A stretch of DNA of 38,979 bases, taken from Alphaproteobacteria bacterium. Its GTDB lineage: Bacteria > Pseudomonadota > Alphaproteobacteria > UBA8366. Shown here piece after piece: positions 1 through 15,120 of this stretch. The stretch is from positions 1 to 38,979 of the forward strand of contig JAOTYV010000004.1 in assembly GCA_029861675.1 (NCBI GenBank), given 5' to 3'. The notes under the pieces were generated by a model. That model did not search any database. It was not told the DNA's origin and saw only the letters and a program-made list of their open reading frames with translations. Made by a program: the position numbers and the translations under genes. Within the stretch, counting starts at the first letter, position 1. The number at the start of each line of letters is the position of its first letter.

Positions 1-409
1 CCTGGCCCTCGCCCATCTTGACGCCGCGGTCGAACACATGGCCGAGCAGATCGCCATAGGAGTTTTGCGACACCGGCGCGCCGCAATGCATACCGATGCC
101 CCAGAAGATGGCGAATACCTCCTCCTCGGAATATTTCTCCGAGGGCAGGCCGCGCAGCAGAAAAAAACCGCGGCCGTCTCGCACCTGCGAAACCACCTCA
201 CCGAGACGGGCGGCCAGACCCGGCAGCGGAAAATCGTCGCGGGTGATCGTTTCGTGGCTCAGTTCCTTTTCCTGCGCGTGGCGAAGCGCGGCGTCGATCT
301 CCTCGAGTTCCGCCGGCGTCAGCCGGTGCAGCCATGTCGTATCGTCCTGCAACGCTGCGCCCTTCCAGGCGCTCGGGCCGGTGATGGTGTCTCGCAGAAT
401 TGTCGGCAT
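1..409 (-). CDS. TauD/TfdA-family Fe(II)/2-oxoglutarate dioxygenase, N-terminal part
   Basis: Only the first 136 codons are in the window; the gene runs off the left edge. The visible part has the usual N-terminal layout of the clavaminate synthase-like/TauD group: a Trp-containing start (TITGPSAWKG), a helix-rich stretch, then GRGFFLLRGLP at about residues 80-90 and a GMHCGAPVSQNSYGDLLGHV region that normally precedes the iron-binding HxD motif. That motif would lie outside the window, so catalytic competence cannot be judged. The ATG at 409 is preceded by GGGAGCG, a reasonable ribosome binding site. Family members hydroxylate small organic acids with O2 and 2-oxoglutarate; the substrate cannot be read from sequence. 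It is divergent from the RidA gene. Confidence 0.75.
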   Translation of the reverse strand, partial: MPTILRDTITGPSAWKGAALQDDTTWLHRLTPAELEEIDAALRHAQEKELSHETITRDDFPLPGLAARLGEVVSQVRDGRGFFLLRGLPSEKYSEEEVFAIFWGIGMHCGAPVSQNSYGDLLGHVFDRGVKMGEGQ

Positions 410-500
410 CGGTGCGCTCCCGATCGTGTCGTGGTCAGGATGGACAGTCTAAACGATTGCGGCGGCATCGGAAGTGCGGGACCGTGAGAATGTCCAAACC

Positions 501-518
501 GGCGGCGGTACCGCCGCC
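501..518. promoter_or_regulatory. 18-bp perfect palindrome between divergent genes
   Basis: GGCGGCGGTACCGCCGCC reads the same on both strands with no spacer. It lies in the 144-bp gap between the divergently transcribed dioxygenase (start 409) and RidA gene (start 554), about 35 bp upstream of the latter. It could be an operator for a dimeric regulator or simply a GC-rich symmetrical sequence. No promoter boxes could be placed around it with confidence. Confidence 0.3.
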
Positions 519-553
519 GAATATTTGAAGCAACGACTATGGGGATACGAACC

Positions 554-898
554 ATGACAATCGACCGTTGGCAGGGATCCGCGAAAGGCCGTAACCGCGC
601 CGTGCGTCACAATGGCATCGTCTACACGGTGGCGACCGCGCCGGGCGCCGATATCCAGGCGCAGACCCGGGCAACCCTGGACGCCATCGACAAGAATTTG
701 GCGGATGCGGGGTCCGACAAGACCCGGCTGATCTCGGTACAGATCTTTCTCGCGGATATGACGCAGAAGGACGGCATGGACTCCGTGTGGAACGACTGGA
801 TCGGAGCGGAGTGGCAAAACTGGCCGCAGCGCGCCTGTGTCGGCGCGCCGCTCGCGGGCGACACGCTGGTCGAAATCGTGGTGACCGCAGCGGCGTAA
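554..898 (+). CDS. RidA family protein (YjgF/YER057c/UK114), probable enamine/imine deaminase
   Basis: A 114-residue protein with the size and pattern of the RidA family: an early NGIVYTVATAPG strand, a central ATLDAIDKNLADAG helix and the C-terminal WPQRACVGAPL motif. In active RidA proteins the Arg of this last motif binds the carboxylate of 2-aminoacrylate-type enamines; it is present here (R93), with the usual Cys two residues later. The N-terminal region is less typical than in E. coli RidA, so another Rid subgroup with a different imine substrate is possible. The start at 554 follows GGGGATACGAACC; an in-frame ATG at 539 would add five residues. The gene stands alone, divergent from the dioxygenase and convergent with the next gene. 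Confidence 0.85.
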   Translation: MTIDRWQGSAKGRNRAVRHNGIVYTVATAPGADIQAQTRATLDAIDKNLADAGSDKTRLISVQIFLADMTQKDGMDSVWNDWIGAEWQNWPQRACVGAPLAGDTLVEIVVTAAA

Positions 899-901
899 AA
901 T

Positions 902-1345
902 TCAGGGCGGTGCCGGGAATCGCTTGAGGAAGGCGTGCGCTCGCGGCAGTGCGTCATGCAGGAACTGTCCGGACTCGCGCAACCACAAGCCGTCGTAGAG
1001 CCGCGACCGCACTTCGGACACGAGCACCGGTTTGGGCAAGGGAATGAGATCGGCGGTCCACCCCGGCCGCCATCGTCTTGCCTTGGCTTCCGTATGCGTG
1101 AAAAGCGCGGGCCAGTATGAATACCCGTGATAGTCGAACGCCAGATCGTCGCGAACGACCACGATGTGGTTTCCGGTGTAGCCTGTCGCCGGTCGCATCC
1201 AGACCACCTCGAAGCCGCGGCCCGGATAGGTTTCGAGAAAAGCAAACGCCAGGATATGACAGGCGCCGCACGCGAAGAAGACACGTTCCGATAGCGCCCA
1301 TCGCTTGACGAGGTTGCCTTTCGTGCCCGGGGGAAGCCTGAACAT
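902..1345 (-). CDS. Hypothetical protein with Cys-His and His-Asp motifs
   Basis: This 147-residue protein was not recognised. Notable residues are a CGACH cluster (C26, C29, H30) followed by a hydrophobic helix (ILAFAFLETY), then a strand NHIVVVRDDLAFDYHGY carrying H60, D66, D67 and D71. A cysteine at the start of a helix with a later His and Asp on adjacent strands is the order found in papain-like and transglutaminase-like folds, but this is only a resemblance. There is no signal peptide or membrane segment. It lies 34 bp downstream of pdeM on the same strand, so it may be the last gene of the helicase-pdeM transcript. The start at 1345 lacks a strong ribosome binding site. Confidence 0.6.
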   Translation of the reverse strand: MFRLPPGTKGNLVKRWALSERVFFACGACHILAFAFLETYPGRGFEVVWMRPATGYTGNHIVVVRDDLAFDYHGYSYWPALFTHTEAKARRWRPGWTADLIPLPKPVLVSEVRSRLYDGLWLRESGQFLHDALPRAHAFLKRFPAPP

Positions 1346-1379
1346 TGTATCGCTGTACCGTATCGAAAATGCGGCAGCC

Positions 1380-2090
1380 CTAGAGCAGCAGCGGCTGCCG
1401 GGGGTCGTCGTCCGCTTGGGCCCGCAACACGCGGCGCGGGATGCGGTGCACCCGCGTCCGGCCGAGGATCAGGACCGTGTAGTCGCGCGCCAACAGCGAT
1501 TCGATCGCCGGGTCGCGCACGTCGAGCCCGCCGGTATACGCGCCGAAGGCGGGCAGGATCAGCCGCTGCCCATCGGTCACGAAACAGCGGCCGGTCAGGC
1601 GCCGGCCGCGCGCGGCGACGGCGGCCTTGGGGTGGAAATGCCCCGAAATTTCGCCGCGGCCGCGTTTGGCCGCCTGATGGCGGAACACCAGCCCGGCGGC
1701 CCGGTACTCGGCCGTCGTCACGCCGCCGATTGTGTCGGGCAATGCCGGATCGTGATTGCCGGTGATCCAGATCCAGTCGTGCCGCGCGGTCAGCCGCGCC
1801 AGCGCCGCACGCTCGTCGGCGCCGAGACGCGCGGGCGCGTCGCCATCGTGGAAACTGTCGCCGAGACAGATCACCCGCCGCACCGGATGGCGCGCCAGCA
1901 CCGCATCCACGCGGCGCAGCGTCTCGCGGCTGTCATAGGGCGGCAGCAAGGTGCCCTTGGCGGCGAAGGCGGACCCCTTTTCGAAATGCAGATCGGCGAC
2001 GATCGCGCTGTCCCCGCCGGGCCAAATCAAGGCGCCGGATGGGTCGGCCAGCAGGCGTTCGCCGGCGAATCGAAATTCCGCCGGCGTCAC
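1380..2090 (-). CDS. pdeM: Ligase-associated DNA damage response endonuclease PdeM
   Basis: A 236-residue calcineurin-like metallophosphoesterase. All metal-binding motifs are visible in order: DLHFEKG (Asp-x-His, about residues 33-39), GDSFHDG, GNHDPALPD and GHFHP. This short architecture with its N-terminal lead is typical of PdeM, a nuclease/phosphoesterase encoded with the 'ligase-associated' helicase. The start is the GTG at 2090, which overlaps the helicase stop codon by four bases (GTGA) and so implies translational coupling; the reading frame is open far upstream, but that part is only the shadow of the helicase gene. The family is thought to act in DNA end processing together with helicase, exonuclease and ATP-dependent ligase partners; the last two are not in this window. 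Confidence 0.9.
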   Translation of the reverse strand: MTPAEFRFAGERLLADPSGALIWPGGDSAIVADLHFEKGSAFAAKGTLLPPYDSRETLRRVDAVLARHPVRRVICLGDSFHDGDAPARLGADERAALARLTARHDWIWITGNHDPALPDTIGGVTTAEYRAAGLVFRHQAAKRGRGEISGHFHPKAAVAARGRRLTGRCFVTDGQRLILPAFGAYTGGLDVRDPAIESLLARDYTVLILGRTRVHRIPRRVLRAQADDDPRQPLLL

Positions 2091-4564
2091 GGCGACGTGC
2101 CCGTGGCTTCGGCGATCAAGGCTTGTGCCGCTTCGTCCAGCATCAGGTCGAGCGCCGCGCCATCCACCCGTTCCTTGCCGATCTCCAGCAGAATCGGCAC
2201 CGCCAAAGGCGACACCCGATCGAGCCGGCGATGGGTGATGTGTCCCTCGATCCGTTTCAGGAACGTGGCGAGGCGGCCGATATCGGTGAGCCCGCGCGCG
2301 GCGTCGTGCCGTGTCGCGCGCAACAGAACATGCTGCGGGTCGTGCCGGCGCAGCGTGTCGTAAATCAGGTCGGAGTTGAAGGTGACCTGCCGGCCGGTCT
2401 TTTTCTGGCCGGGATACTGGCGCTCGATCAACCCGCCGATCACGGCCACGTTGCGGAAGGTCCGTTTCAGCATCGACGATTCGTCCATCCACGCTTCCAA
2501 ATCATCGCCCAGCATGTCTTCATCGAACAGCGTCGTCACATTGCCGACCGGTTTGACGCTCCACACCGCGATCACGTAGTCGGTGGCGACGAAACCCATC
2601 GGCGCCAGACCCGCGCGTTCCATGCGCTTGGTCAACAGCATGCCCAGCGTCTGATGCGCGTTGCGGCCTTCGAAACAGTAGGCGACCATGAATTCACGCT
2701 GGCCGCGCGGGAAGCTCTCGATCAGCAGCCCGTCCGGTTCCGGCAGGCAGGAGCGCCATTGCTGGATGCCGAGCCAGTCGCGCACCTGATCCGTCAGCGC
2801 GTGCCACCCCGCCGGCCGGGCGAGGATGGCCCGTACCCGTTCGGCCAGATGGGTCGTCAACGGCAGCCGGCCACCCACATAGGCGGGCACCTTCGGGGTA
2901 TCGCCCGGCGCGCGCACCGCCTGCACCGTCATCTCGCGGATGCCGTCGAACCGCAACAGCTGGCCGGAAAACAGAAAAGTATCGCCGATCTCCAGGCCGA
3001 GCGCGAAATATTCCTCGACCTCGCCGAGATACGGGCCGCGCTTGATGCGGACCTTCAGCGTCGTCGCCTCGACGATGGTGCCGATGTTCATACGCAGCCG
3101 CTGCACGACGGCGGGCGAGGCGGCCCGGTAGCGCCCGTCCGGCAGGCGCTCCAGCCGGCGCCAGCGTTCGTATCGCCGGAGCGCGTAGCCGCCATGATCG
3201 ACGAAGGCGACGACATCGTCGAAATCCCGGCGATCGAGGCCCGCATAGGGCGCGGCGGCGGTGATCTCTCGATACAGATCATCAGGATCGAAAGGCGCGG
3301 AACACGCCATCGCGAGCACATGCTGCGCCAGTACGTCGAGCCCGCCCGGCTGCGGCCGGTCGCCGTCCAGGGTGTTTTCCGCGACCGCGTCGAGCGCGGC
3401 CCGGCATTCCAAGACCTCAAACCGGTTGGCCGGCACCAGGATCGCGCGGCTCGGCCGGTCGAACCGGTGTTCGGATCGCCCGATGCGCTGGATCAGGCGG
3501 CTCACACCCTTCGGCGCGCCCACCTGCACCACCAGATCGACGGCCGCCCAATCGATGCCGAGATCGAGCGACGAGGTGGCGACCACCGCACGCAGCTTGC
3601 CGGCGGCCATGGCGGCCTCCACCTTGCGGCGCTGTTCGACGGCCAGACTGCCGTGATGCAGCGCGATCGGCAGATTGTCGTCGTTGCGCCGCCACAGCTC
3701 CTGAAACACGATCTCGGCCTGCGCCCTTGTGTTGACGAAGACGATCGTCGTGCCGGCCTTGCGAATCTCCTCATAGACTTCCGGCAAGGCATGGGTCGCC
3801 ATATGGCCCGACCACGGCATTTCCGCGCGTGTGGCCAAAATCCGGATATCGGCGGCGGGGCCGGCGCCGCCGTCGATCAGCCGCACCGATGCCGCGGCCG
3901 CATCCGGGGCGAGCCAGGCGCGCAATTCATTCGGCCAGGCGACGGTCGCCGACAGGCCGACCCGGCGGCAGCGCGGCGCCAATTTTTGCAGCCGGGCGAC
4001 GCAGAGCGCGAGCTGGTCGCCGCGTTTGGTGCCGGCCAGCGAGTGAATTTCGTCCAGCACGACGCACCGCAGGCCGCGGAAGAAATCCGGCGCATCCGGG
4101 TAGCTGAGCAGCAGGGTAAGGCTCTCGGGCGTCGTCAACAGGATGTTCGGCGGGCGCTCCCGCTGCCGCCGGCGTTTGTGCTGTGGCGTGTCGCCGGTGC
4201 GGGTCTCCACGGTGACCGGCAGCGCCATTTCGGCGACCGGCGTCTGCAAGTTCCGATGAATGTCGACCGCGAGCGCCTTGAGCGGCGAGACATAGAGCGT
4301 GTGCAGTCCCGCCGCGCCCGTCGTCGCAATGTCGATCAGGCTCGGCAGAAACCCGGCCAATGTCTTGCCGCCGCCGGTTGGCGCGATGAGGAGCGTGTGG
4401 TGATCCCGCCGCGCCGCCTCCAGCATGGCGAGCTGGTGCGCATGGGGCGACCAGCCGCGCGCGGTGAACCAGTCGGCGAAGTCTGCCGGCGGTCCGCTGT
4501 CGTTCTCCGGCGCTGGCGTTGCCGCGTCGCCGGTCCATAGAGCCGATTGGCTCCCCATGCTCAT
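2087..4564 (-). CDS. Ligase-associated DNA damage response DEXH-box helicase (Lhr-like)
   Basis: An 825-residue superfamily 2 helicase. Motif I is APTGGGKT (about residues 61-68), motif II is the DEIH in VVLDEIHSLAG, motif III is LSATVAWP, and motif VI is QRIGRSEHR. A large C-terminal region after the two RecA-like domains matches the Lhr-core/ligase-associated family, and the total length is normal for it. The frame is open upstream, but the ATG at 4564 (preceded by AGGGAGCC 12 bases away) gives the family's usual N-terminus; a second ATG lies six bases further in. It is translationally coupled to pdeM. Predicted role: ATP-driven 3'-5' unwinding during DNA repair in the cytoplasm. Confidence 0.92.
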   Translation of the reverse strand: MSMGSQSALWTGDAATPAPENDSGPPADFADWFTARGWSPHAHQLAMLEAARRDHHTLLIAPTGGGKTLAGFLPSLIDIATTGAAGLHTLYVSPLKALAVDIHRNLQTPVAEMALPVTVETRTGDTPQHKRRRQRERPPNILLTTPESLTLLLSYPDAPDFFRGLRCVVLDEIHSLAGTKRGDQLALCVARLQKLAPRCRRVGLSATVAWPNELRAWLAPDAAAASVRLIDGGAGPAADIRILATRAEMPWSGHMATHALPEVYEEIRKAGTTIVFVNTRAQAEIVFQELWRRNDDNLPIALHHGSLAVEQRRKVEAAMAAGKLRAVVATSSLDLGIDWAAVDLVVQVGAPKGVSRLIQRIGRSEHRFDRPSRAILVPANRFEVLECRAALDAVAENTLDGDRPQPGGLDVLAQHVLAMACSAPFDPDDLYREITAAAPYAGLDRRDFDDVVAFVDHGGYALRRYERWRRLERLPDGRYRAASPAVVQRLRMNIGTIVEATTLKVRIKRGPYLGEVEEYFALGLEIGDTFLFSGQLLRFDGIREMTVQAVRAPGDTPKVPAYVGGRLPLTTHLAERVRAILARPAGWHALTDQVRDWLGIQQWRSCLPEPDGLLIESFPRGQREFMVAYCFEGRNAHQTLGMLLTKRMERAGLAPMGFVATDYVIAVWSVKPVGNVTTLFDEDMLGDDLEAWMDESSMLKRTFRNVAVIGGLIERQYPGQKKTGRQVTFNSDLIYDTLRRHDPQHVLLRATRHDAARGLTDIGRLATFLKRIEGHITHRRLDRVSPLAVPILLEIGKERVDGAALDLMLDEAAQALIAEATGTSP

Positions 4565-4632
4565 CGGATCGATCGGCTCCCTGTCTTCGCATTCCGAATT
4601 TCGCCAGCTTAACCCGGAGCGCTGGGACAAAA

Positions 4633-4646
4633 CCAGAACATTCTGG
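4633..4646. promoter_or_regulatory. Short inverted repeat CCAGAA-CA-TTCTGG
   Basis: A perfect 6-2-6 inverted repeat lies in the 176-bp divergent gap between the repair helicase (start 4564) and the DUF3012 lipoprotein gene (start 4741). Its location would suit an operator controlling the helicase-pdeM transcript. It does not fit the alphaproteobacterial LexA pattern (GTTC-N7-GTTC), so an SOS link is not supported. Confidence 0.25.
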
Positions 4647-4740
4647 AAAATCCCATCGGTGGGTGGGCCGTATTGCCGATTGCGTCCTGCCGCCGCCCTA
4701 CGTATGTTCCGCGTCATCGGAATCTGGAGGAACGACGCCC

Positions 4741-4914
4741 ATGCGCAGGACCATTTCGCGGCTCATACCGCTTGTCGCGATCATCGCCTTGGTCGCCGCG
4801 TGTTCGCCCGAGGTGGGCAGCAAGGAGTGGTGCGACGATCTGAAGAACAAACCGAAGGGCGACTGGACCGCCAACGAAGCGGCGGACTTCGCCAAACACT
4901 GTATTTTCAAGTAA
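4741..4914 (+). CDS. DUF3012 small lipoprotein
   Basis: A 57-residue protein that starts with a lipoprotein signal peptide: MRR, a hydrophobic core ([13 protein letters not shown]) and a lipobox cysteine at residue 21 (LVAAC). The mature part, with [31 protein letters not shown], fits the DUF3012 family, including two conserved cysteines (WC and HC) that could form a disulphide in the periplasm. Function is unknown. GGAGG at 4726-4730 is a good ribosome binding site ten bases before the ATG. It lies 34 bp upstream of lepA on the same strand and may share its promoter. Confidence 0.85.
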
Positions 4915-4948
4915 TCACCGGACCTGTTGTCCAAAACTGGCGCCCACA

Positions 4949-6751
4949 ATGACCGATCTCTCACACATCCGAAATTTCGCCATCATTGCGCATATCGATC
5001 ATGGCAAGTCGACCCTCGCCGATCGCTTGATCCAGTTTTGCGGCGGATTGACGGATCGCGAGATGCAGGAGCAGGTGCTCGACTCGATGGAGCTGGAGCG
5101 CGAGCGCGGCATCACCATCAAGGCGCAGACGGTTCGCCTCAACTACAAGGCGGAGGATGGGGAAACCTATCAGCTCAACCTCATGGACACGCCGGGCCAT
5201 GTGGATTTCACTTACGAGGTGAGCCGCTCATTGGCCGCCTGCGAAGGATCGATTCTGGTGGTCGACGCTGCCCAGGGCGTCGAGGCGCAGACCCTTGCCA
5301 ACGCCTATCTCGCGATCGACGCGGACCACGAAATCATTCCGGTGTTGAACAAGATCGACCTGCCCTCTGCCGAGCCCGACCGGGTGTGCCAGCAAATCGA
5401 GGAGGTGGTCGGCATCGACGCCTCCAACGCGGTCGAGGTATCGGCGAAGACCGGGCTTGGCATCGACGACGTGTTGGAGGCCCTGGTAACGCGTCTGCCG
5501 GCGCCGACGGGCGATCCGGATGCACCGCTCAAGGCGCTGCTGGTCGACAGTTGGTATGACGCCTATCTCGGTGTGGTCACGCTGGTTCGCGTCATCGACG
5601 GCGTTCTGTCCAAGGGCATGAAGGTACAGATGATGTCGACCGGCACATTGCACGATATCGACCGTGTCGGCGTCTTCACCCCGAAGCGGACCATGATGGA
5701 TAGCCTGTGGCCGGGCGAAATCGGCTTCCTGACCGCGAGCATCAAATCGGTCGCCGATTGCAAGGTGGGCGACACCCTGACCAATGCCCGCGCCGGCGCA
5801 GCCGAGCCGTTGCCCGGATTCCAGCCGACCGTTCCGGTCGTTTTCTGCGGCCTCTTTCCGGTCGATAACGCGGACTACGAGGATCTGCGCGAGAGCCTCT
5901 CGAAGCTGGCGCTCAACGATTCATCGCTGCATTACGAACCGGAAAGCTCGGCCGCGCTCGGCTTCGGGTTCCGATGCGGCTGCCTCGGCCTGTTGCATCT
6001 GGAAATCGTTCAGGAGCGGTTGAGCCGGGAATTCGACCTGGACCTGATCACCACGGCGCCGTCGGTGGTCTATCGCATTCATATGACCGACGGGAAGACG
6101 ATCGACCTGCACAATCCCGCCGACTATCCGGATGTCACCAGAATTACGTCGGTCGAGGAACCGTGGATTCGCGCGACGATCATGGTGCCGGACGAATATC
6201 TCGGCCCGATCCTGAGCCTGTGCACGGAGCGGCGGGGCGAGCAGATCGATCTGACCTATGTGGGCAATCGGGCGATGGCGGTCTATTCGCTGCCGCTGAA
6301 CGAGGTGGTCTTCGACTTTTATGACCGATTGAAGTCGATCAGCCGCGGCTATGCGAGTTTCGACTATGAATTGTCCGGCTATCGCGAGGGCGAACTGGTC
6401 AAGCTATCGATCCTCGTCAATGCGGAGCCGGTCGATGCGCTCTCGATGATAACGCATCGCGCCAGCGCGGAATCGCGCGGCCGGCAGGTCTGCGAGCGGC
6501 TCAAGGATCTGATCCCGCGGCAATTGTTCAAGGTGCCGATTCAGGCCGCGATCGGCGGCAAGGTCGTGGCCCGCGAAACGATCAGCGCGATGCGCAAGGA
6601 TGTCACCGCGAAATGCTACGGCGGCGATATCACGCGGAAACGCAAGCTCTTGGAGAAGCAGAAGGCCGGCAAGAAGAAAATGCGGCAATTCGGCAAGGTG
6701 GAGATTCCGCAGACCGCCTTTATCGAAGCCCTGAAGATGCCGGACCCCTAG
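4949..6751 (+). CDS. lepA: Elongation factor 4 (LepA), back-translocating ribosomal GTPase
   Basis: A 600-residue translational GTPase, exactly the usual LepA length. G1 is AHIDHGKST (residues 14-22), the switch region carries [13 protein letters not shown]3 is DTPGHVDF (80-87) and G4 is NKIDLP. The LepA-specific C-terminus is present, with [16 protein letters not shown] and [29 protein letters not shown], which reaches into the peptidyl-transferase region. LepA acts on stalled or mis-translocated ribosomes in the cytoplasm and associates with membranes. The ATG at 4949 has only a weak ribosome binding site. The TAG stop falls inside the first bases of the 106-bp repeat described next. Confidence 0.98.
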
Positions 6752-6854
6752 AGCAAATCCCGAGCGAACCGAAACGATTCGCAACGGCGTATTTGCATAA
6801 AAACAAAGAGATAGATCATTTCACTTGGGTCGATTTAAACAAGAAATTGTCTAG
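6749..6854. repeat. 106-bp paired-hairpin intergenic repeat, copy 1
   Basis: This element fills the whole gap between the convergent genes lepA and the cysteine hydrolase. It matches 9908-10013 without gaps at about 92 of 106 positions. It has two inverted repeats: an outer GCAAAT/ATTTGC arm enclosing GCGAACCG-AAA-CGATTCGC (one mismatch), and AGATCATTTC/GAAATTGTCT around a 20-base loop (two mismatches; this stem is perfect in copy 2). The TAG at its left end is the lepA stop, and the CTA at its right end (6851-6853) is the TAG stop of the minus-strand hydrolase. No transposase lies nearby. A REP/MITE-like palindromic element or bidirectional terminator is plausible. Confidence 0.8.
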
Positions 6855-7450
6855 TCGGGCAAATCCGACCCCGACGCCACGATCACCGCGAAACGGTCGG
6901 CAATGGCGGCGAGGCTGGATTTTTGCACCGTCGCCGCGTCGACAACGCCGCCGCCGGGGACCGCCAAGTCGCGGGTTGCCGTCGCGTTTGCAATCACCGT
7001 GCAGGCATAGCCGAGATCGAGTCCGGCCCGTACCGTCGTGCTCACGCACATGTGTGTCATGAAGCCGACGACGACCAGGTTTTTTCGGCCGATGCCCTTC
7101 AGGGTCTCCTCGAGCTTGGTGTCGGCGAAGGCGTTCGGCATGGTCTTGTCGATGATCGATTCGCCGACGGTCGGCGTTGCCTCCGGGGCGACCTGCCCGC
7201 CCTGGGCGTCCCGGTCGAACAGGCCGCCTTGGGCGCCGCGATGGAGAACATGCACGATCGGTGAGCCGGCTTCGCGGTATCGTTCGGTCAGTTGGCCAAT
7301 ATCGCGGAGGGCGTCGTTGACCCCGTGGAGCGGAAGCTGACCATCGATATATTCCCGCTGGCAGTCGATCAGCAGGAGAACGGAATCGGATATCGCACCG
7401 GGCGCCAAATTCGCGCCGGCGAGTTCGAGTAGGGTCTTCGGGTCGGCCAT
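6851..7450 (-). CDS. Isochorismatase-family cysteine hydrolase
   Basis: A 199-residue protein of the isochorismatase/nicotinamidase-like superfamily. The catalytic triad is in place: D29 in LLLIDCQREY, K102 in IDKTMPNAF, and C135 in GFMTHMCVSTT. Such enzymes hydrolyse amides or vinyl ethers on small molecules (nicotinamide, isochorismate, ureas or carbamates); the substrate cannot be assigned. The start at 7450 follows AAGGAC at good spacing. The TAG stop is supplied by repeat copy 1. Upstream on the same strand are the NUDIX and ACT-domain genes, with 56 bp between this gene and the NUDIX gene. Confidence 0.9.
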   Translation of the reverse strand: MADPKTLLELAGANLAPGAISDSVLLLIDCQREYIDGQLPLHGVNDALRDIGQLTERYREAGSPIVHVLHRGAQGGLFDRDAQGGQVAPEATPTVGESIIDKTMPNAFADTKLEETLKGIGRKNLVVVGFMTHMCVSTTVRAGLDLGYACTVIANATATRDLAVPGGGVVDAATVQKSSLAAIADRFAVIVASGSDLPD

Positions 7451-7506
7451 GTACAAGTCCTTATTCTTCGCCGCGCCGATTGTCGGCAAAAAATATGAAA
7501 CTTTTC

Positions 7507-8361
7507 TTAACCGGCGATGCGCAGCCCCTCGCATATGGCTGTGTAATCCCGTTCGCTGTCCGGGTCCAGCACGCCATGGCGGATCAGGAAATCGATGATC
7601 ACCAGATTGCAATTGAATTTGAATTCGAACCCGTGCCGGACGAGGGTCGCCACCTCGTCGATTGGCATGAGATGGAAGGACTCAACCTCGCCGTCCACGG
7701 CGATCGGGCTGAAGTCCCTGGGCAATTCCAAGTCGTAGCAGAACATCTTGTCCGGCTTGCAGCCGTCCGGCGTCTCCTGCGTATAGGAAATCATGCCGAC
7801 TGGGCGGGCCTGCCGGGCGTGGGCCTCGGGAATGCCGGCCTCTTCGTGACATTCCTTGACCACGTTATCCGCCAAGCCGATGCCGATGGGCTGGCCACCG
7901 GCCACCATATTGTCGAGCATGCCGGGAAAGGTGGCCTTGCCCCGCGCGCGTCGGGCCACCCACATGTGAAGTCGCCCGCTCTCCCGCACGTATCCGTTGA
8001 GGTGAACGCCATAGGCACGGATGCCGAACATCGGGCAGGCGGCGCGCTCGATCTGCATATGCGGCGGCACATGCCAGTCCTGCGTTACCGGATAGAATTC
8101 CTCGCGCCAGGCCGGGATGGCGCCGTCGTCGGCCAGCGCGCGCAAGACCGTTTCGACCGCCTGCGATCGCGACTCGAAATCGTCCAGGGATGGGGTGAGG
8201 CCGACGCCGGAACCGGACACGTCGAAAACCTCGGGCCAAGCGCGCAACCGGTCCGCCAGTTCGGGGCGGAGAAAGCCGACCCGCTCGCTCGAAATGCTAA
8301 ATGGCAAAAATCCCGCCGGATCGAAATTGTTGCAGGCGTGGATATGGTCGAGATAGCTCAT
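7507..8361 (-). CDS. DUF4743-containing NUDIX hydrolase (Tnr3-like)
   Basis: A 284-residue protein with an N-terminal DUF4743 region (about 1-115) and a NUDIX domain beginning near YGVHLNGYV. The Nudix box spans residues 155-177 and ends KECHEEAGI, with the metal-binding glutamates kept but Lys in place of the usual Arg. The first Glu of the classic box is Ile here, which I believe is usual for this subfamily. Related proteins are fused to thiamine pyrophosphokinase in fungi (Tnr3) and are thought to remove damaged or oxidised thiamine diphosphate. It lies 12 bp downstream of the ACT-domain gene, so the two are probably co-transcribed. Confidence 0.88.
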   Translation of the reverse strand: MSYLDHIHACNNFDPAGFLPFSISSERVGFLRPELADRLRAWPEVFDVSGSGVGLTPSLDDFESRSQAVETVLRALADDGAIPAWREEFYPVTQDWHVPPHMQIERAACPMFGIRAYGVHLNGYVRESGRLHMWVARRARGKATFPGMLDNMVAGGQPIGIGLADNVVKECHEEAGIPEAHARQARPVGMISYTQETPDGCKPDKMFCYDLELPRDFSPIAVDGEVESFHLMPIDEVATLVRHGFEFKFNCNLVIIDFLIRHGVLDPDSERDYTAICEGLRIAG

Positions 8362-8373
8362 GCCCTCGGAGTC

Positions 8374-8694
8374 CTACCGGTCGTTTCCGCCAAGAGCAAC
8401 CACCGCGTCATCGCGGTCAGCGGCGCTGGTCCGGCGGCTCGATAACAGTACCCGGTCGACCATATAGATTTGCCGCAGACAGGCGGCAATATATTCCGCC
8501 AGGGCGGGCGGCATGCCGGCCACTTGGATCTCGACCGCCAAGGCCGAACCGTCGACCCGGGAATGCCATTCGGATGGCGTCAGGCCGCGTTTCGCGAACA
8601 ATTCGAGCAGCCGCGGCATGACGCCGGGAGAGGCCGCCGCGGTCACCGAAAAGCAGGCCGCGTGGACAGGACTTCCATTTTCTGAATTCGACAT
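8374..8694 (-). CDS. ACT-domain protein, small regulatory-subunit-like
   Basis: A 106-residue protein whose central part (ACFSVTAAASPGVMPRLLELFAKRG, quoted here only for its pattern of strand, Pro-Gly turn and helix) looks like an ACT domain of the type found in the small subunit of acetolactate synthase: hydrophobic strand, S-P-G turn, long helix, then an ALAVEIQV strand. No catalytic partner is nearby. The Arg/Asp-rich C-terminal tail shows no known motif. The start at 8694 was chosen because it removes a non-conserved hydrophobic lead; an ATG at 8721 is in frame and neither has a strong ribosome binding site. It heads a probable operon with the NUDIX gene. Confidence 0.7.
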   Translation of the reverse strand: MSNSENGSPVHAACFSVTAAASPGVMPRLLELFAKRGLTPSEWHSRVDGSALAVEIQVAGMPPALAEYIAACLRQIYMVDRVLLSSRRTSAADRDDAVVALGGNDR

Positions 8695-8870
8695 TGAGAC
8701 ACACCGGATTAGTAAAAACATGATTGCGCACAGGACGGGAACCCGGCCCTCGGGAGGGGCCGGCTATCTAATTCGGCTAAGCCGATCCTGTGCTTGGCGT
8801 GTCAACATCGGCCGGACACTATCACCGGCGTCCGGACCCGGCAAGCCTGCGCGCGCCGGGTATGGCTCGG

Positions 8871-8899
8871 CGAAGAAAGAGGCGCCTTTCCGGCGCCTC
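8871..8899 (-). terminator. Rho-independent terminator after the 37-residue membrane protein gene
   Basis: Read on the minus strand, GAGGCGCC-GGAAA-GGCGCCTC forms a perfect 8-bp stem with a five-base loop (8879-8899), followed directly by TTTCTT. It lies 32 bp downstream of the small gene ending at 8931, which supports that gene being a real transcription unit. Confidence 0.8.
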
Positions 8900-8930
8900 G
8901 ACGAGTTGGTTGCGGGTAAGAACGATGCCC

Positions 8931-9044
8931 TTATCCGCCTTCTGTCGGGATCCAATCGAACGCATAGGCGATAAGGATCGCGACGAGGATCACGCCGATT
9001 ATTCCGGCGGTCCAATAGATGCTCTTTTTGCTCTCTTCGGTCAT
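8931..9044 (-). CDS. 37-residue single-pass membrane protein
   Basis: This very small gene encodes a short charged N-terminus (MTEESKKS), one clear transmembrane helix (about residues 9-31, rich in Ile, Val, Leu and Ala and ending in YAFDWI) and a short acidic tail (PTEGG). The ATG at 9044 is preceded by GGAGG at close to ideal spacing, and a strong terminator follows the stop. These flanking signals are the main reason to believe it. With three Lys or Glu pairs before the helix the N-terminus could face the cytoplasm. Function is unknown; proteins of this size often act as subunits or regulators of membrane complexes. It sits alone between the ACT-domain gene and a gene-poor region. Confidence 0.65.
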   Translation of the reverse strand: MTEESKKSIYWTAGIIGVILVAILIAYAFDWIPTEGG

Positions 9045-9068
9045 ATTCGCCTCCGTCTTCCGCAACAC

Positions 9069-9087
9069 GGTGTGGCAACCCCACACC
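9069..9087 (-). other. Hairpin in the leader of the 37-residue protein gene
   Basis: GGTGTGG and CCACACC form a perfect 7-bp stem with a five-base loop, centred about 34 bases upstream of the ATG at 9044 and outside its ribosome binding site. It could stabilise or regulate the short mRNA. It has no T-run and is not a terminator. Confidence 0.35.
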
Positions 9088-9596
9088 AGGGAGACGAGTC
9101 GCCGGCGAAACGTTTAGCCACCGCCATGCCCTGTCGACCCGGGCCATGACGATCAAGGTAAATTTGGTACCCTTTTCCCGTAAAATCAAGCGGCTCCATG
9201 ACCCGTCGCGGCGTGGCGAGATCGCCCGGCATCGGGCCGAAGACCGGAAAAATGATTTCGGTACTGGCCGACCGTGAGCGGTATCGGGGTCGCTGGCGGC
9301 GCTAGGGACTCGGGGCATAGTCAGAAGGCACTACCACGAATTCGTTGGGCTGATCCTCCCCAATACGGAATTATCCGGTTTCGCGGCGGGTGAATTAAAA
9401 CGACTTAGAAACAATAAGTTATGGCTTCCCTTGGGCACTGGGCGGGGCTCGGCCCGTCATTCCGCCGGGTGCGAGCCATGAGCGAAAAAGCGCTGGAAAC
9501 CGGCGGTTCGGGAGATTTAACCGAACTTACCCGCATTCCCGCTTGACCGTTTGCCGCTGCCTATTAGATTTGAGGGGACGGGAGTTACTCAAGCGG
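9088..9596. other. Gene-poor stretch of about 500 bp
   Basis: No convincing gene was found here. There are AT-richer patches near 9157-9190 and 9395-9420 that may hold promoters for the flanking genes, but no clean -35/-10 pair could be placed. A 41-codon plus-strand frame (9421-9546, with a second ATG at 9478) begins after an in-frame stop and ends before the AT-hook gene; it has no good ribosome binding site and no recognisable motif, so it is not annotated. No tRNA, mobile element or long repeat is visible. Confidence 0.5.
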
Positions 9597-9609
9597 CGGA
9601 GGTACAGTC

Positions 9610-9894
9610 GTGTTTAATCTCTGGATCTATCAGCGCCGTTCCTCGTGCTCGGCGCGTCTGCAGCATGGCGGTTCCTCGGTGCTCACACCGATGGAGGGCC
9701 TTGAATCCGCTGTCGAATGGTCGGTTGCCCGGGCGGTTGCCGGCGCCGACCAAGTGACGTCGGACAATGTGCTGCCATTCCAATCGCCGCGGGATTCCGT
9801 TAGCCGGGACCCGGCGGTGCCGGCCGACCGCAAACGGCGGGGCCGCCCAAAGGGCCGTGGACACGGCAAGAAACCCGGCGGCAAGCGCGACTGA
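9610..9894 (+). CDS. Small basic protein with C-terminal AT-hook-like motif
   Basis: A 94-residue protein that was not recognised as a whole. The last 20 residues are very basic and contain RRGRPKGRG (about residues 76-84), the Gly-Arg-Pro core of an AT-hook, flanked by further Lys/Arg/Gly. AT-hooks insert into the minor groove of AT-rich DNA, so a nucleoid or regulatory role is possible. The N-terminal two-thirds has no clear domain. The GTG start at 9610 is preceded by GGAGG with a seven-base gap, which is good support. The stop lies 13 bp before repeat copy 2. The main doubt is that the N-terminal part is compositionally unremarkable. Confidence 0.55.
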   Translation: MFNLWIYQRRSSCSARLQHGGSSVLTPMEGLESAVEWSVARAVAGADQVTSDNVLPFQSPRDSVSRDPAVPADRKRRGRPKGRGHGKKPGGKRD

Positions 9895-9907
9895 CGCGCC
9901 GGCGTCC

Positions 9908-10013
9908 TAAAGCAAATCCCGAGCGAACCGAAACGGTTCGCAGCGACGAATTTGCGTATAATCAAAGAGATAGACCATTTCACTTGAGTCAATTTGAATA
10001 AGAAATGGTCTAG
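9908..10013. repeat. 106-bp paired-hairpin intergenic repeat, copy 2
   Basis: The second copy, same length as 6749-6854 and differing at about 14 positions. Both hairpins are perfect here: GCGAACCG (9923-9930)-AAA-CGGTTCGC (9934-9941) inside GCAAAT (9912-9917)/ATTTGC (9950-9955), and AGACCATTTC (9972-9981)/GAAATGGTCT (10002-10011) with a 20-base loop. It separates the convergent AT-hook and intradiol dioxygenase genes. As in copy 1, its right-hand CTA (10010-10012) is the TAG stop of the minus-strand gene. Several differences between the copies restore or break pairing within the stems. Confidence 0.85.
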
Positions 10014-10684
10014 CCTTCCAAGACGATGTTGAAGTGCCCGGTTTGGCTGCCGGGCTCGATTTGCGGCGACTCCCGGAAGGGAACGATCAACCGCGCGCGC
10101 TCTTCGGCACCTTTAACGGAATGGAGGATGCCGTCCTGCGGGTTCAAGGGGTCGCCGGCGAAATACATCTGCGTCACCAGCGGCGGCCGGCCGGCGGCCG
10201 CAATCCGGAAATGGATATGCGGCGTTCGGCGGAAGAACGCCGATCCATAGGCCGCCGGCTTGATGGTCCGGAACGAATAGCGCCCGGCCCGGTCGGTGGC
10301 GACCGCACCATAGCCCTGAAAATTGGGATCATGGCCGTCGCGCGGGTGGTTATAGATACCCGCCGCATTGGCCTGCCAGATTTCGACCCGGGCGTTGGCG
10401 ATGGGCGCGCCATCCAATCGCAAGACACGTCCGGTGACGTGGATGATGCTGCCGGCGGCATCCTCGTCGCGGCCGCGAAGCCGGACGAGATCGGCGTCGC
10501 GGTCGCTCGATTTCTGAGCGTCGTTTGGATAGAACGGACCCGCGGTTTGCGCGGGCGTCGGGGCTGGCCCGGCGCCGCGGGCGACCATTGGCCAGACCGC
10601 CGCCGTTGCGGCGGCGCCGAGCAGCAGCGAGCGGCGCGTCGTACGCCGGTCCGAAACCGGGCGGTGAGGTCCAATCTCATGCAT
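10010..10684 (-). CDS. Tat-exported intradiol ring-cleavage dioxygenase (protocatechuate 3,4-dioxygenase beta-like)
   Basis: A 224-residue protein beginning with a twin-arginine signal (TTRRSLLLGAAATAAVW), so it is probably exported folded with its iron. The catalytic region shows the expected Fe(III) ligands: a Tyr in AGIYNH, a Tyr in the KPAAYG region or GRYSF, and the two His of RTPHIHFRI. The core includes GRVLRLDGAPIANARVEIWQA, typical of the family. These enzymes cleave catechol-type rings between the hydroxyls. The substrate is unknown, and exported members are poorly characterised. The ATG at 10684 has no strong ribosome binding site; a TTG at 10720 would add 12 residues. The TAG stop is inside repeat copy 2. 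Confidence 0.88.
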   Translation of the reverse strand: MHEIGPHRPVSDRRTTRRSLLLGAAATAAVWPMVARGAGPAPTPAQTAGPFYPNDAQKSSDRDADLVRLRGRDEDAAGSIIHVTGRVLRLDGAPIANARVEIWQANAAGIYNHPRDGHDPNFQGYGAVATDRAGRYSFRTIKPAAYGSAFFRRTPHIHFRIAAAGRPPLVTQMYFAGDPLNPQDGILHSVKGAEERARLIVPFRESPQIEPGSQTGHFNIVLEG

Positions 10685-10860
10685 CGGTCGAAGCTTGGCG
10701 TCCTCGGCGAAACAGGGCAAGCATTAGATGCGTCACGGTGCGGCACATTCTCGTGACCGGAACGGCAGGCCGCAAATCGCCCTTGGTTTTGCTGTGTTGA
10801 ATAATTCGGGATAGGGTGCCGCGCCGCCGGGGCGGACGGCTTGAATTTGGAGGAATTGCG

Positions 10861-12558
10861 GTGGTCGAGACAGCGAAAACGGGTGAAGCGGCGGAATCGG
10901 ACGTGGCGCCGGTGATCGAAGATCTCTTGGCCTGTTGCCGGGGCGCCCTCGGCGCAGCGGAGGCGTTGGAGCACCAGACGCGCGGTGCCGTTGCCGCGCT
11001 GGTCGCCCCGGACGGGCGGGTCGCCGGCGATCTCCTGGAGCGCGAACAGTTCGCCGCGCATGGATATGCCTGGCTCGCCACCTATGTGGAGGGGCTGCGC
11101 CAGATGCTCGGCTGGGCGGAGCGCTGCCTGGGTGCGGGAACCTTCGGCGAAATCGAGGCGCTGACGCTGCAGATGGCGTTCGGTGAATATCTGTCGCAGC
11201 TGTCCGGCGGTTTCGCGATGAGCCAGGGCGAGATCGTCCGGCTGGCCGATATGGGCGTCGCGCCGGCCGACAGCGCCGCCTTTCGCACCGATGGCGTTGC
11301 CAAACTGATCGCCGCGGGCAACACCGCCGCCGTCCGTCAACGGCTGGCCGCCCTGCTGGGCGATGGCGAGATCGCGGACGCGGCGCTGGCCGACGAGACG
11401 CTGATCCTGATGCGCGACCAGTTTCGCCGCTTCGCCGACGAAAAGATCGCGCCCGCCTGCCACGAGTGGCACGTCAAGGATGAGCTGATCCCGCTGCCGC
11501 TGGTCGAGGAATTGTCGGCGCTCGGCGTGTTCGGGCTTACGGTGCCGGAGAGCCATGGCGGGCTCGGCATGGGCAAGATGGCGATGTGCGTGGTGACCGA
11601 GGAGTTGAGCCGTGGCTATATCGGCGTCGGCTCGCTGGGCACCCGCTCGGAGATTGCGGCGGAACTGATCCGTCTCGGCGGCACCGACGCGCAGAAACAG
11701 AAATGGCTGCCCCGGATCGCGTCCGGCGAGGTGCTGCCGACCGCCGTCTTCACGGAGCCGAACACCGGCTCCGATCTCGGCCGTCTGCGAACCCGGGCCG
11801 AGCGCGACGGCGGGACCTACCGTATCTTCGGCAACAAGACCTGGATCACCCATGGGGCGCGCAGCGACCTGATGACCCTGCTGGTGCGCACCGATGCGGA
11901 CGAGCCCGGCTATCGCGGCCTGTCGATGTTCCTGGCCGAGAAGCCGCGCGGCACCGATTCCAATCCCTTCCCGGCGCCGGGCATTAGCGGCGGCGAAATC
12001 CGTGTGTTGGGTTATCGCGGCATGAAGGAGTACGAGATCGGCTTCGACGGGTTCGAGGTCGCGGCGGAGAACCTGCTGGGCGAGGCCGAGGGCGACGGCT
12101 TCAAGCAACTCATGGCGACCTTCGAATCCGCCCGGATCCAGACCGCGGCGCGCGCGGTCGGCGTGGCGCAGAACGCCTTCGAGCTGGCCCTGTCCTATGC
12201 AAGCGAACGCATCCAGTTCGGCAAGCCCCTGGCCGCCTTCCCCCGGGTCGCCGGCAAGATCGCCTGGATGTCGGTGGAAACGATGATCGCCCGGCAGCTC
12301 AGCTATTTCGCCGCGCGCGAGAAGGATTCGGATCGCCGCTGCGATATCGAAGCCGGCATGGCCAAGCTGCTGGCCGCGCGCACCGCGTGGTCGAATGCGG
12401 ACAACGCGGTGCAGATCCATGGCGGCAACGGCTATGCGGAGGAATACCCGATTTCACGGGTGCTGTGCGACGCGCGGATCCTCAATATTTTCGAAGGCAC
12501 CGCGGAAATCCAGTCCAACATCATCGCCCGCGGGCTGTTGTCGGCCGGGCGGAATTAG
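10861..12558 (+). CDS. mcd: (2S)-methylsuccinyl-CoA dehydrogenase (acyl-CoA dehydrogenase family)
   Basis: A 565-residue acyl-CoA dehydrogenase with a long extra N-terminal domain (about 1-170, including AAHGYAWLATYVEGLRQM and GEIEALTLQMAFGEYL), which distinguishes Mcd from ordinary 380-residue members. The core has the FAD/acyl-CoA motifs TAVFTEPNTGSDLG, KTWITHGARSD, QIHGGNGYAEEYP and the FEGTAEIQ motif carrying the likely catalytic Glu (E545). Mcd oxidises (2S)-methylsuccinyl-CoA to mesaconyl-CoA in the ethylmalonyl-CoA pathway, passing electrons to ETF, which is encoded about 1.8 kb downstream. The GTG start at 10861 has a GGAGG eight bases upstream. Confidence 0.85.
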   Translation: MVETAKTGEAAESDVAPVIEDLLACCRGALGAAEALEHQTRGAVAALVAPDGRVAGDLLEREQFAAHGYAWLATYVEGLRQMLGWAERCLGAGTFGEIEALTLQMAFGEYLSQLSGGFAMSQGEIVRLADMGVAPADSAAFRTDGVAKLIAAGNTAAVRQRLAALLGDGEIADAALADETLILMRDQFRRFADEKIAPACHEWHVKDELIPLPLVEELSALGVFGLTVPESHGGLGMGKMAMCVVTEELSRGYIGVGSLGTRSEIAAELIRLGGTDAQKQKWLPRIASGEVLPTAVFTEPNTGSDLGRLRTRAERDGGTYRIFGNKTWITHGARSDLMTLLVRTDADEPGYRGLSMFLAEKPRGTDSNPFPAPGISGGEIRVLGYRGMKEYEIGFDGFEVAAENLLGEAEGDGFKQLMATFESARIQTAARAVGVAQNAFELALSYASERIQFGKPLAAFPRVAGKIAWMSVETMIARQLSYFAAREKDSDRRCDIEAGMAKLLAARTAWSNADNAVQIHGGNGYAEEYPISRVLCDARILNIFEGTAEIQSNIIARGLLSAGRN

Positions 12559-12637
12559 AAGCGGCGTTTTCACCGACGGCGGATCGAAATCCGCGTTACC
12601 CCTGTCCACCCGGCGCAAAAACGGCTATATCGCTGCA

Positions 12638-12838
12638 ATGTCCGGAGCCGTCACCTTTCTGCTCGTGATCGCCATGCTGGCTACGCTCGGCGTGCTGGCA
12701 TTCGGCTTGATCACCATGGCCCGGGGCGGCGACTTCAACCGCCGCAATTCGAACAAGCTGATGCGCTGGCGCATCCTCCTGCAGTTCATCGCGCTGGTAC
12801 TGTTCGCCATCCTGATGCTGGCTCTGGGTAAGTCCTGA
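12638..12838 (+). CDS. Twin-transmembrane HIG1-domain protein
   Basis: A 66-residue protein with two hydrophobic helices (about residues 5-27 and 45-64) joined by a polar loop MARGGDFNRRNSNKLMRWR. The loop and the LMRWRILLQF entry to the second helix fit the HIG1 N-terminal family (hypoxia-induced), whose eukaryotic members bind respiratory complexes. Bacterial members are often simply called twin-transmembrane proteins. Its stop overlaps the start of the adenosyltransferase by one base (TGATG), so the two are translationally coupled. It follows mcd by 79 bp. Confidence 0.75.
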   Translation: MSGAVTFLLVIAMLATLGVLAFGLITMARGGDFNRRNSNKLMRWRILLQFIALVLFAILMLALGKS

Positions 12839-13407
12839 TGGTCAAGTTGACGCGCATCTACACCGGTGGCGGCGATGGCGGCGAAACCTCGCTCGGCGAC
12901 GGCGGGCGGGTCGCCAAGCATGATATCCGGGTCGAGGCCTATGGCACGGTGGACGAGGCGAATGCGGTAATCGGGCTGGTTCGCGCCGGCGCAGCGTTAC
13001 CCGGCGACGTCGATGCGATGCTGAGCCGGATCCAAAACGACCTGTTCGATCTGGGAGCCGATCTTTGCACGCCCGAGGGCAGCGACCGGGGCGCCGCGGC
13101 GCTGCGGGTCAGCGCGGAGCAGGCGGCGCGCCTGGAGGCGGAGATCGATGCGATCAACGCCCCGCTGGCGCCGTTGAACAGCTTCGTGCTGCCGGGCGGT
13201 TCCCCGGCGGCGGCGCAGTTGCATCACGCGCGCACGGTGGTGCGGCGCGCCGAACGGCTGGTGGCGCAGTTGGCCGACGCACAGACGGTGAACCGTCAGG
13301 TGCTGGTCTACCTGAACCGCCTCTCGGACTTGCTTTTTGTTTTGGCACGCCACTGCAATGACGGCGGCAAGGCCGACGTGCTCTGGGTGCCCGGCGCCAA
13401 CCGCTAG
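12838..13407 (+). CDS. Cob(I)alamin adenosyltransferase, PduO type
   Basis: A 189-residue protein with the PduO-type N-terminal ATP-binding signature RIYTGGGDGGETSLGDGGRVAKHD, the VEAYGTVDEANAVIG helix and the C-terminal RRAERL...VNRQVLVYLNRLSDLLFVLAR region. It transfers the adenosyl group of ATP to cob(I)alamin to make coenzyme B12. The context fits: the ethylmalonyl-CoA pathway uses two adenosylcobalamin-dependent mutases, and the window also encodes a B12-dependent ribonucleotide reductase. Its start overlaps the upstream small membrane gene by one base. Confidence 0.93.
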   Translation: MVKLTRIYTGGGDGGETSLGDGGRVAKHDIRVEAYGTVDEANAVIGLVRAGAALPGDVDAMLSRIQNDLFDLGADLCTPEGSDRGAAALRVSAEQAARLEAEIDAINAPLAPLNSFVLPGGSPAAAQLHHARTVVRRAERLVAQLADAQTVNRQVLVYLNRLSDLLFVLARHCNDGGKADVLWVPGANR

Positions 13408-13429
13408 CTGTGTCTGTGGTTCCCGGCCG

Positions 13430-14233
13430 GTGATCCTTGAACTCATCGAATATCTCACCACCGATTGTCCGCGCCCCGCCCGTCGTCTCGGTTATCTGAA
13501 GGAGGCGGTCGCCATTCACGCCCGCCGCCGGCGGCTCGGGCCGGTTTGGGACGATCATCTCGAACGCTCGCGCGCCGTCATCACCGATGCCATCGCCCGA
13601 TGTCCCCGGCGGCGCACAGCGCTGGTAATCGGCTCGGGGCTGCTACTAGATATTCCGCTGGCCGAACTGGCGGCAGGTTTCGACCGTGTACTGCTGGCCG
13701 ATCTCGTGCATTTGCGGGCGGCCCGGCGCACCGCCGCGCACTACGGCAACGTCGAATTGGTGACCGCCGATGTGACAGGGTTCGTCGGCGATCTGGAGCA
13801 CCGCGTCGCGGCGGGTTGGCGCGGCGATCCGGTGCCGGTTTCGGATGCGTTCCTCGACGTGGCCGATCTCGATCTCGTCGTATCGGCCAATGTGATGGCG
13901 CAGCTGGCGATTTTCCCGGCCGCGGCGATGCAGCGCCGCGCCGGGCTGGACGGCGACGCCTTGGATACATTTTGCCGCACCGTCGTGCAGCGCCATCTCG
14001 ATTATCTCGGCCGGTTCGACGCCATGGTTTGCCTGATCACCGAACGGCGCCGCGAGGCCTTCGACAGGAACGGCGGACGGCTTACCGATCAGGATGCGCT
14101 GTTTGGCGTTTCCCTGCCCGAAGGCGGTGCGGAATGGAGCTGGACCCTGGCGCCGCTGGGCGAAGTGAACAAGGATTACGGAATCCGCAACCGGGTTGTC
14201 GGATACTGCGAATTCCCGCCGCTTGGGTCCTGA
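13430..14233 (+). CDS. Uncharacterised protein with Rossmann-like, methyltransferase-type core
   Basis: A 267-residue soluble protein of unknown function. A TALVIGSGLLLDIPL stretch (about residues 63-77) followed by a strand VLLADLVH and later VELVTADVTGF has the order of a class I SAM-dependent methyltransferase fold: glycine loop, acidic residue after strand 2, Asp after strand 3. A DLDLVVSANVMAQLAIFP segment could be the motif IV region. No known substrate motif was seen. The GTG at 13430 is the only sensible start and has a weak ribosome binding site. It lies 22 bp after the cobalamin adenosyltransferase, so it is probably in the same transcript. Confidence 0.65.
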   Translation: MILELIEYLTTDCPRPARRLGYLKEAVAIHARRRRLGPVWDDHLERSRAVITDAIARCPRRRTALVIGSGLLLDIPLAELAAGFDRVLLADLVHLRAARRTAAHYGNVELVTADVTGFVGDLEHRVAAGWRGDPVPVSDAFLDVADLDLVVSANVMAQLAIFPAAAMQRRAGLDGDALDTFCRTVVQRHLDYLGRFDAMVCLITERRREAFDRNGGRLTDQDALFGVSLPEGGAEWSWTLAPLGEVNKDYGIRNRVVGYCEFPPLGS

Positions 14234-14244
14234 TTTTCGCGAAT

Positions 14245-14329
14245 TTGACCTCTTTCGCGGTTCTGCCTATGGTGCGCCGTCCTTGCGGCGGGCCCCGGCT
14301 TGACAGGGCACGGCAAGCCTCCGTATGTC
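14245..14329 (+). promoter_or_regulatory. Two candidate sigma-70 promoters upstream of etfB
   Basis: In the 135-bp gap before etfB, TTGACC (14245-14250) and TATGGT (14268-14273) are 17 bp apart, and a consensus TTGACA (14300-14305) is followed 18 bp later by TATGTC (14324-14329). The second would start transcription roughly 30 bp before the etfB start codon. These are by-eye matches; alphaproteobacterial -10 boxes are often poor. Confidence 0.4.
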
Positions 14330-15118: not shown

Positions 15119-15120
15119 GC

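Follow-up and report, generated by a model that had tools for sequence, protein, structure and literature searches.

Several families of short palindromic repeats have been described in bacterial genomes. According to a 2007 review, the Caulobacter CcrM-associated intergenic repeats (CIR) are ~110 bp long, with two arms, a linker and TA termini, and lie between genes; their target-site duplication is listed there as unknown, and more information is said to be needed on their mobility (PMC2229807). Elsewhere CIR are called strictly intergenic (PMC10969869). Bru-RS of Brucella is described as an intergenic family of 103-105 bp stem-loops with 35-40 copies (PMC2267715), and RUP of Streptococcus pneumoniae as a 107 bp repeat with a TA target, for which IS630-Spn1 has been proposed as the mover (PMC2229807). 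RIMEs are mentioned as intergenic repeats (PMC2573895, PMC2245857). In the literature consulted, of which parts were available, no report of TA duplication at stop codons was found for repeats of the RIME or CIR type, which is no proof of absence. By size, shape, host and description, the repeat studied here belongs with the alphaproteobacterial two-palindrome repeats RIME1, Bru-RS and CIR.

The repeat occurs twice in the stretch of DNA that was analysed (38,979 nucleotides, hereafter the window). The features of the two copies and of the genes next to them are as follows.

4949 to 6751, plus strand: lepA (elongation factor 4; Pfam PF06421); stop codon at the left end of copy 1
6749 to 6854, plus strand: copy 1 of the two-hairpin repeat, including both flanking TA and the next host G (92/106 identical to copy 2; model match)
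6749 to 6750: left TA, the putative target-site duplicate, forming bases 1-2 of the TAG stop of lepA (sequence; TA on both sides at two rhizobial sites)
6753 to 6796, plus strand: left compound hairpin of copy 1 (fold)
6797 to 6811, plus strand: A-rich linker of copy 1, within the stretch most like the rhizobial copies
6812 to 6853, plus strand: right hairpin of copy 1 (fold)
6852 to 6853: right TA, the putative target-site duplicate, within the hydrolase stop CTA 6851-6853 on the minus strand (sequence)
6851 to 7450, minus strand: isochorismatase-family hydrolase, 199 aa in its database entry (Pfam PF00857); stop codon at the right end of copy 1
9908 to 10013, plus strand: copy 2, the better-paired copy (rhizobial model; fold z -5.8)
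9912 to 9955, plus strand: left compound hairpin of copy 2 (fold)
9971 to 10012, plus strand: right hairpin of copy 2, 11 pairs (fold)
10010 to 10012, minus strand: stop of the dioxygenase, read as CTA on the plus strand, at the right end of copy 2 (ORF call)
10010 to 10720, minus strand: open reading frame of the dioxygenase gene (Pfam PF00775)

A reading made earlier from the sequence only (the sequence-only reading) had described two copies that match without gaps at about 92 of 106 positions, with two hairpins on both strands, and had placed them at two convergent junctions, with copy 1 supplying the stops of its neighbours. Alignment reproduced the identity, and folding of both copies bore out the hairpins. 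The open reading frames and Pfam agree that copy 1 exactly fills the gap between lepA (stop TAG 6749-6751) and the hydrolase (stop CTA 6851-6853) and provides both stops. At copy 2 a stop is found at the right end only, that of the dioxygenase; the plus-strand open reading frame to its left, a putative gene, stops at TGA 9892-9894, 13 bases before the element. This small putative reading frame (9612-9894, plus strand) encodes a C-terminus KPGGKRD before its TGA.

A repeat search returned the two copies as the longest repeat family within the window, and neither this search nor the covariance model described below found a third copy there. The repeat search stretches the pair leftward by 10 bases, 7 of which are equal, and a comparison of just the two copies therefore leaves the left edge blurred; the family model sets it at 6749 and 9908. 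Both strands of both copies form two hairpins, the left one compound and the right one with a long loop. Fold z scores are -2.5 (plus) and -2.9 (minus) for copy 1, and -5.8 (plus) and -5.6 (minus) for copy 2. Relative to copy 2, copy 1 has one mismatch in each hairpin with no compensating change. The elements are AT-rich, with GC contents of 0.40 and 0.41 in surroundings of 0.64. In both copies the left end is C-TA and the right end is C-TA-G.

To compare the repeat with rhizobial ones, a covariance model was built from 23 near full-length copies on rhizobial plasmids, with the window copies excluded; 21 of them came from 30 fetched loci in 8 plasmid records, of which nine partial ones were dropped, and two more were L042 and L045. 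Under a rough calibration, this model matched copy 2 with 53.4 bits (E 1.5e-11) and copy 1 with 41.7 bits (E 1.2e-8), in both cases over model positions 1-105. The next-best match in the window was the opposite strand of copy 2 (10.7 bits, E 0.59). The nucleotide identity of the window copies to 48 rhizobial copies is 0.62 at best, with medians of 0.54-0.55. Full-length matches to a model free of window sequences argue for homology despite identities of at most 0.62 to single copies, and on these grounds the window repeat is well supported as a homologue of the rhizobial two-palindrome repeats. For the left arm, the homology rests on the model, since blastn with the left half of copy 2 gave no rhizobial pattern. 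The inner arm of the left hairpin differs in sequence from that of the rhizobial copies.

Pairwise searches gave a similar direction in the right half of the element. With blastn at E values up to 10, the right half of copy 1 matched 112 plasmid records, 108 of which are from Rhizobium, Agrobacterium, Sinorhizobium, Ensifer, Martelella or Allorhizobium and the other four from Vibrio. The right half of copy 2 matched 4 Rhizobium plasmid records, and its left half matched 7 scattered plasmid records without the rhizobial pattern. When copy 1 was used whole, the only match was a phage sequence at 28% coverage; copy 2 had no plasmid match at E 0.01, and at E 10 there were matches to it in 49 records, 43 from Rhizobium, with coverage below 80% in every case.

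The rhizobial copies, which we take to be of the RIME1 type (Rhizobium-specific intergenic mosaic element), are numerous, with 2352 places in 544 plasmid records when one of them served as query. Ten such places were inspected, three among the matches to the right half of copy 2 and seven among those to the right half of copy 1. Seven of them (L036, L038-L042 and L045) plainly share one architecture, in which TAGAGCA.TTCC, an inner palindrome and GGAA.TGC are followed by a linker that in most cases contains CAAAGAG, and then by a second palindrome mostly ending in CTAG; one of the seven has TACAGCAATTCC instead of TAGAGCA.TTCC. The other three (L037, L043 and L044) are more divergent, yet they match the model with 54.4, 47.6 and 38.4 bits. 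On the At plasmid of Agrobacterium fabrum C58 (L044, 3943-4569), an isochorismatase-family hydrolase gene lies ~1.4 kb from the repeat at the end of treZ, probably by coincidence. In the rhizobial alignment 95.8% of the cells are paired and 10 of the 28 pairs change on both sides; the 45 covarying cells compare with 12.9 in shuffles (0/500 as high) and with 3-7 when the partners were slid. Both window copies have the features of the family, namely two arms and a linker between TAR...CTAG ends. They share with the rhizobial copies a length of ~105, the left end TAGAGCA or TAAAGCA, the right end CTAG, the two hairpins, the CAAAGAG linker and a full-length model match, whereas they differ in identity (at most 0.62), in the inner-arm sequence of the left hairpin and probably in having a host that is not a rhizobium.

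Pattern scans extended the comparison to other sequence sets. In genome contigs, a core pattern with 20 fixed bases found just two stretches, both from Flavobacteriales, neither of which continues as the element. In viral sequences, a first pattern scan picked out 30 stretches; on visual inspection, none of them extends into the element. A second scan gave no match. The rhizobial pattern found two contigs with a rhizobial-type copy in the viral set; these IMG/VR contigs (L137, 3966-4070, and L138, 3543-3647) have the same flanking bases.

The host of the window is probably an uncultured alphaproteobacterium outside the Rhizobiaceae. The named LepA relatives among the 120 matches listed are Alphaproteobacteria, Rhodospirillaceae or Proteobacteria entries with 80 to 85% identity, and the best plasmid-borne LepA match, from Sinorhizobium, has 74%. 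RIME1 was reportedly published, in a 1995 paper, as Rhizobium-specific; with a host probably outside Rhizobium and its kin, we file the window repeat as a homologue and not as RIME1 proper. A repeat class named for Rhizobium is thus extended to what is probably another alphaproteobacterial lineage.

Insertion polymorphism was found at two sites among Rhizobium strains. At site 1 (L055), among the 60 matches listed of 99 records, 12 span the full query and 22 are ~100 bp shorter. Two filled and four empty alleles were aligned, and the upstream coding sequence, a small gene after msuE, ends at the same base in all of them. Empty alleles read GATTTC-CTAG or GATTTC-CTAA and filled ones GATTTC-G-TA-element-TA-G; the left flank of the filled alleles is therefore imperfect, GTAG instead of the CTAG or CTAA of empty alleles, which amounts to one extra C to G substitution. 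At site 2 (L048), 6 of the 60 matches listed of 188 records are full and 26 short. MAFFT did not align this junction, so it was read by eye in two filled and three empty alleles, in all five of which the last 100 residues of an ABC permease end alike. The empty alleles are T-TA-G, C-TA-A and C-TA-A; one filled allele is T-TA-element-TA-A, and the other has TC instead of TA at its right end. At both sites, an insert of ~101 bp interrupts a TAG or TAA stop at its TA, TA flanks the insert left and right, and the protein keeps its end. The pattern corresponds to duplication of a TA target within a stop codon. Judging from sister strains that carry or lack the repeat, it seems to transpose into the final codon of genes without altering the encoded proteins. 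In the empty allele of Rhizobium johnstonii 3841 (L151), TTAGAGCAA stands at the target near the site 2 junction and equals the first bases of the element; chance, a feature of the target and a trace of excision cannot be told apart as the cause of this likeness.

We next consider where the rhizobial copies lie. From 85 matches, 64 were entered and 21 weaker, partial or opposite-strand ones were left out. The target set comprised 46 distinct full-length copies of at least 98 nt, with L138, a duplicate, and both window copies left out. Immediately before the left TA stands C in 18, T in 9 and G in 2 of the 29 copies that have TA there, and immediately after the right TA stands G in 19, A in 5, T in 2 and C in 2 of the 28 with TA at that end; TA is kept at both ends in only 17 of the 46. 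The target is thus YTAR, mostly CTAG. The frame of the terminal triplet was open for at least 100 codons at 35/92 ends, compared with 23/184 for the other two frames (p 1.7e-6; the copies come from few records and are mutually related, so this and the following p values are guides only). A real stop behind at least 100 open codons is present at one end or the other in 27/46 copies, and at both ends in 1.

Gene context was analysed for 44 copies of at least 98 nt (L082-L136), with genes called by a simple codon model. Seventeen copies coincide exactly with the stop of a called gene, 24 have other intergenic positions and 3 lie within genes; only 1/44 ends two genes at once. Stops are occupied by 17/41 copies outside genes and coincide with 37/303 non-genic YTAR sites (p 1.8e-5); compared with CTAG sites alone (13/75), the excess is smaller but still present (p 0.007). 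Convergent contexts are over-represented (14/41 copies vs 45/253 non-genic YTAR sites, p 0.02) and divergent ones depleted (4/41 vs 82/253, p 0.003). A looser set (at least 90 nt, other background) pointed in the same direction, with 20 convergent, 27 tandem, 5 divergent and 2 inside genes; two window rows were dropped from it, as the rhizobial codon model misread the genes there. These relatives, with their model match to the window, their 2352 places and their frequent position at stops, support the sequence-only reading in calling the repeat a dispersed palindromic element biased to gene ends, and copies without a preference for convergent gene ends, which that reading had named as contrary evidence, were not what we observed.

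Because stops are occupied beyond the supply of YTAR or CTAG sites, target choice alone does not explain the bias to gene ends. Part of the stop excess may consist of truncated genes whose stop was made by the insertion: of 14 ends that could be scored, 3 apparently gained their stop in this way, and another 14 had degenerated too far for scoring. Purging of insertions from promoters, a finer target rule and a useful role at 3' ends could each add to the excess. It is possible, though on balance doubtful, that the family settles on stops beyond YTAR supply either by insertion that is guided to where translation or transcription ends or by retention of hairpins with a 3'-end function. If true, this would be a stop-codon-preserving mobile element spread across Alphaproteobacteria.

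We consider it likely that the repeat is a small non-autonomous, MITE-like mobile element that inserts at TA, and that the stops in the window were preserved by insertion. Insertion polymorphism with TA duplication, as expected of a MITE, was found at both rhizobial sites, each of which shows a single imperfect base. A core of ~101 bp (GAGC...GCTC in most rhizobial copies) would insert at TA, preferably in YTAR and most often in CTAG, leaving TA on both sides. When the TA belongs to a TAG or TAA stop, TA and the first base of the element, G, would form TAG again, and the gene would keep its stop. CTAG reads TAG on both strands and could thus be shared by two convergent genes. Copy 1 most likely entered a CTAG in which lepA and the opposing hydrolase gene overlapped by 4 bp, with both stops preserved; for copy 2, insertion into a CTAG at the dioxygenase end would have involved only the dioxygenase stop. 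The uninserted lepA end in a relative would read CCCTAGTCG. Since the window copies fit the rhizobial insertion pattern, the best account of their shared stops is that insertion into CTAG produced them as a by-product, and the copies would have arisen in the same way as the rhizobial insertions. The bias to gene ends would then reflect target choice together with tolerance. CTAG is under-represented in the window, with 16 sites, elements included, compared with 32.8 expected from dinucleotide shuffles.

The ends of the neighbouring proteins bear on this proposal. The five closest relatives of LepA (97-99%) share its terminal residues. The hydrolase of the window (P0121) and its seven closest relatives are all 199 aa long with the same position of the end residue. 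For the dioxygenase, the seven closest relatives share the end position, and two more distant ones among the 15 ends compared run longer. As these positions match those of relatives, the insertions appear to have left the protein ends as they are in relatives. This offers a simple reason why hairpins often end genes: the target TA can sit in a stop, and insertion would rebuild it. Moreover, the filled and empty sites in Rhizobium supply empty-site evidence for the movement of such repeats.

The element is presumably moved by a transposase of the IS630/Tc1-mariner type. A 1991 paper is said, by its title, to concern preferential IS630-associated transposition to TA in CTAG. Insertion of ISY100, a member of the IS630 family, duplicates TA (PMC2170065). 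In eight plasmid records, four of which contain the 11 IS630-type (PF13358) loci found, the ends of the element (TAGAGCAWTTCC-type) occurred at none of these loci, and no transposase for the repeat was identified. In this lack of an autonomous partner among the loci searched, and in its host, the repeat differs from RUP. It resembles CIR in size, arms, linker, TA termini and intergenic position as described in the review cited above; the TA on both sides of the rhizobial relatives stands against the unknown duplication given for CIR (PMC2229807).

The sequence-only reading had suggested that the element is used as a bidirectional terminator or mRNA 3'-end stabiliser, that is, that selection keeps the hairpins to stop transcription both ways or to protect mRNA 3' ends. 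We did not find support for this use and judge it unlikely, though less so than the alternatives below. The hairpins on both strands and the helix covariation agree with it, as do the excess at stops over target supply and the greater share of convergent and smaller share of divergent placements relative to non-genic YTAR sites; in Sinorhizobium meliloti, moreover, 26 REP elements and other repeats showed transcriptional activity in an sRNA survey (PMC2873474). However, positions 1-20000 hold 15 terminator-like sites (shuffled mean 15.9), none within either copy, and an intrinsic terminator, a GC-rich hairpin followed by a T run, was dropped for lack of such a site in either copy. Many strains lack the element at these genes, the pairs lost from copy 1 have not been compensated, and the same bias is expected if insertions elsewhere are harmful. 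The coincidence with stops is better explained by insertion. The natural filled and empty alleles of Rhizobium make the terminator question directly testable.

Movement as a REP element by a RAYT tyrosine transposase appears very improbable. A palindromic, mostly intergenic and gene-end-biased repeat would suit it, and genomes rich in REPs have them chiefly between unidirectional and convergent genes (PMC3733652), but the repeat measures ~105 bp with two arms and a linker, against the 20-40 bp given for REPs in the descriptions consulted, and has TA on both sides at two insertion sites. Still less probable is a family of structured RNAs or sRNA genes that is not a mobile repeat: its helices covary and its folds are stable, yet Rfam at gathering thresholds gave 0 matches in the window, for which an Rfam RNA reading was dropped, presence and absence vary among sister strains at fixed sites, and both strands of the palindromes fold. 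A segmental duplication confined to this contig and unrelated to other repeats has next to no probability left. Only two copies occur in the window, 7 of 10 bases are equal just left of the element, and blastn is weak (no plasmid match for copy 2 at E 0.01 and none covering 80% of it at E 10, and a phage match of 28% coverage for copy 1); this explanation is refuted by the full-length matches of the rhizobial model to both copies, and 43 of the 49 weak records are Rhizobium.

Two further observations concern the rhizobial copies. GANTC occurs in 23/46 of them, compared with a shuffled mean of 14.4 and a highest value of 24 in 200 shuffles, and is thus weakly enriched; a function as a CcrM methylation site was set aside. 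In the window, the right loop of copy 2 contains GAGTC (9986-9990); in copy 1 the motif lies in the left hairpin instead, as GATTC (6776-6780). Three partial copies adjoin one another in both orientations on a Sinorhizobium meliloti megaplasmid (L085, 2810-3069; W01, about 3010610-3010870), a hint of nested or tandem insertion.
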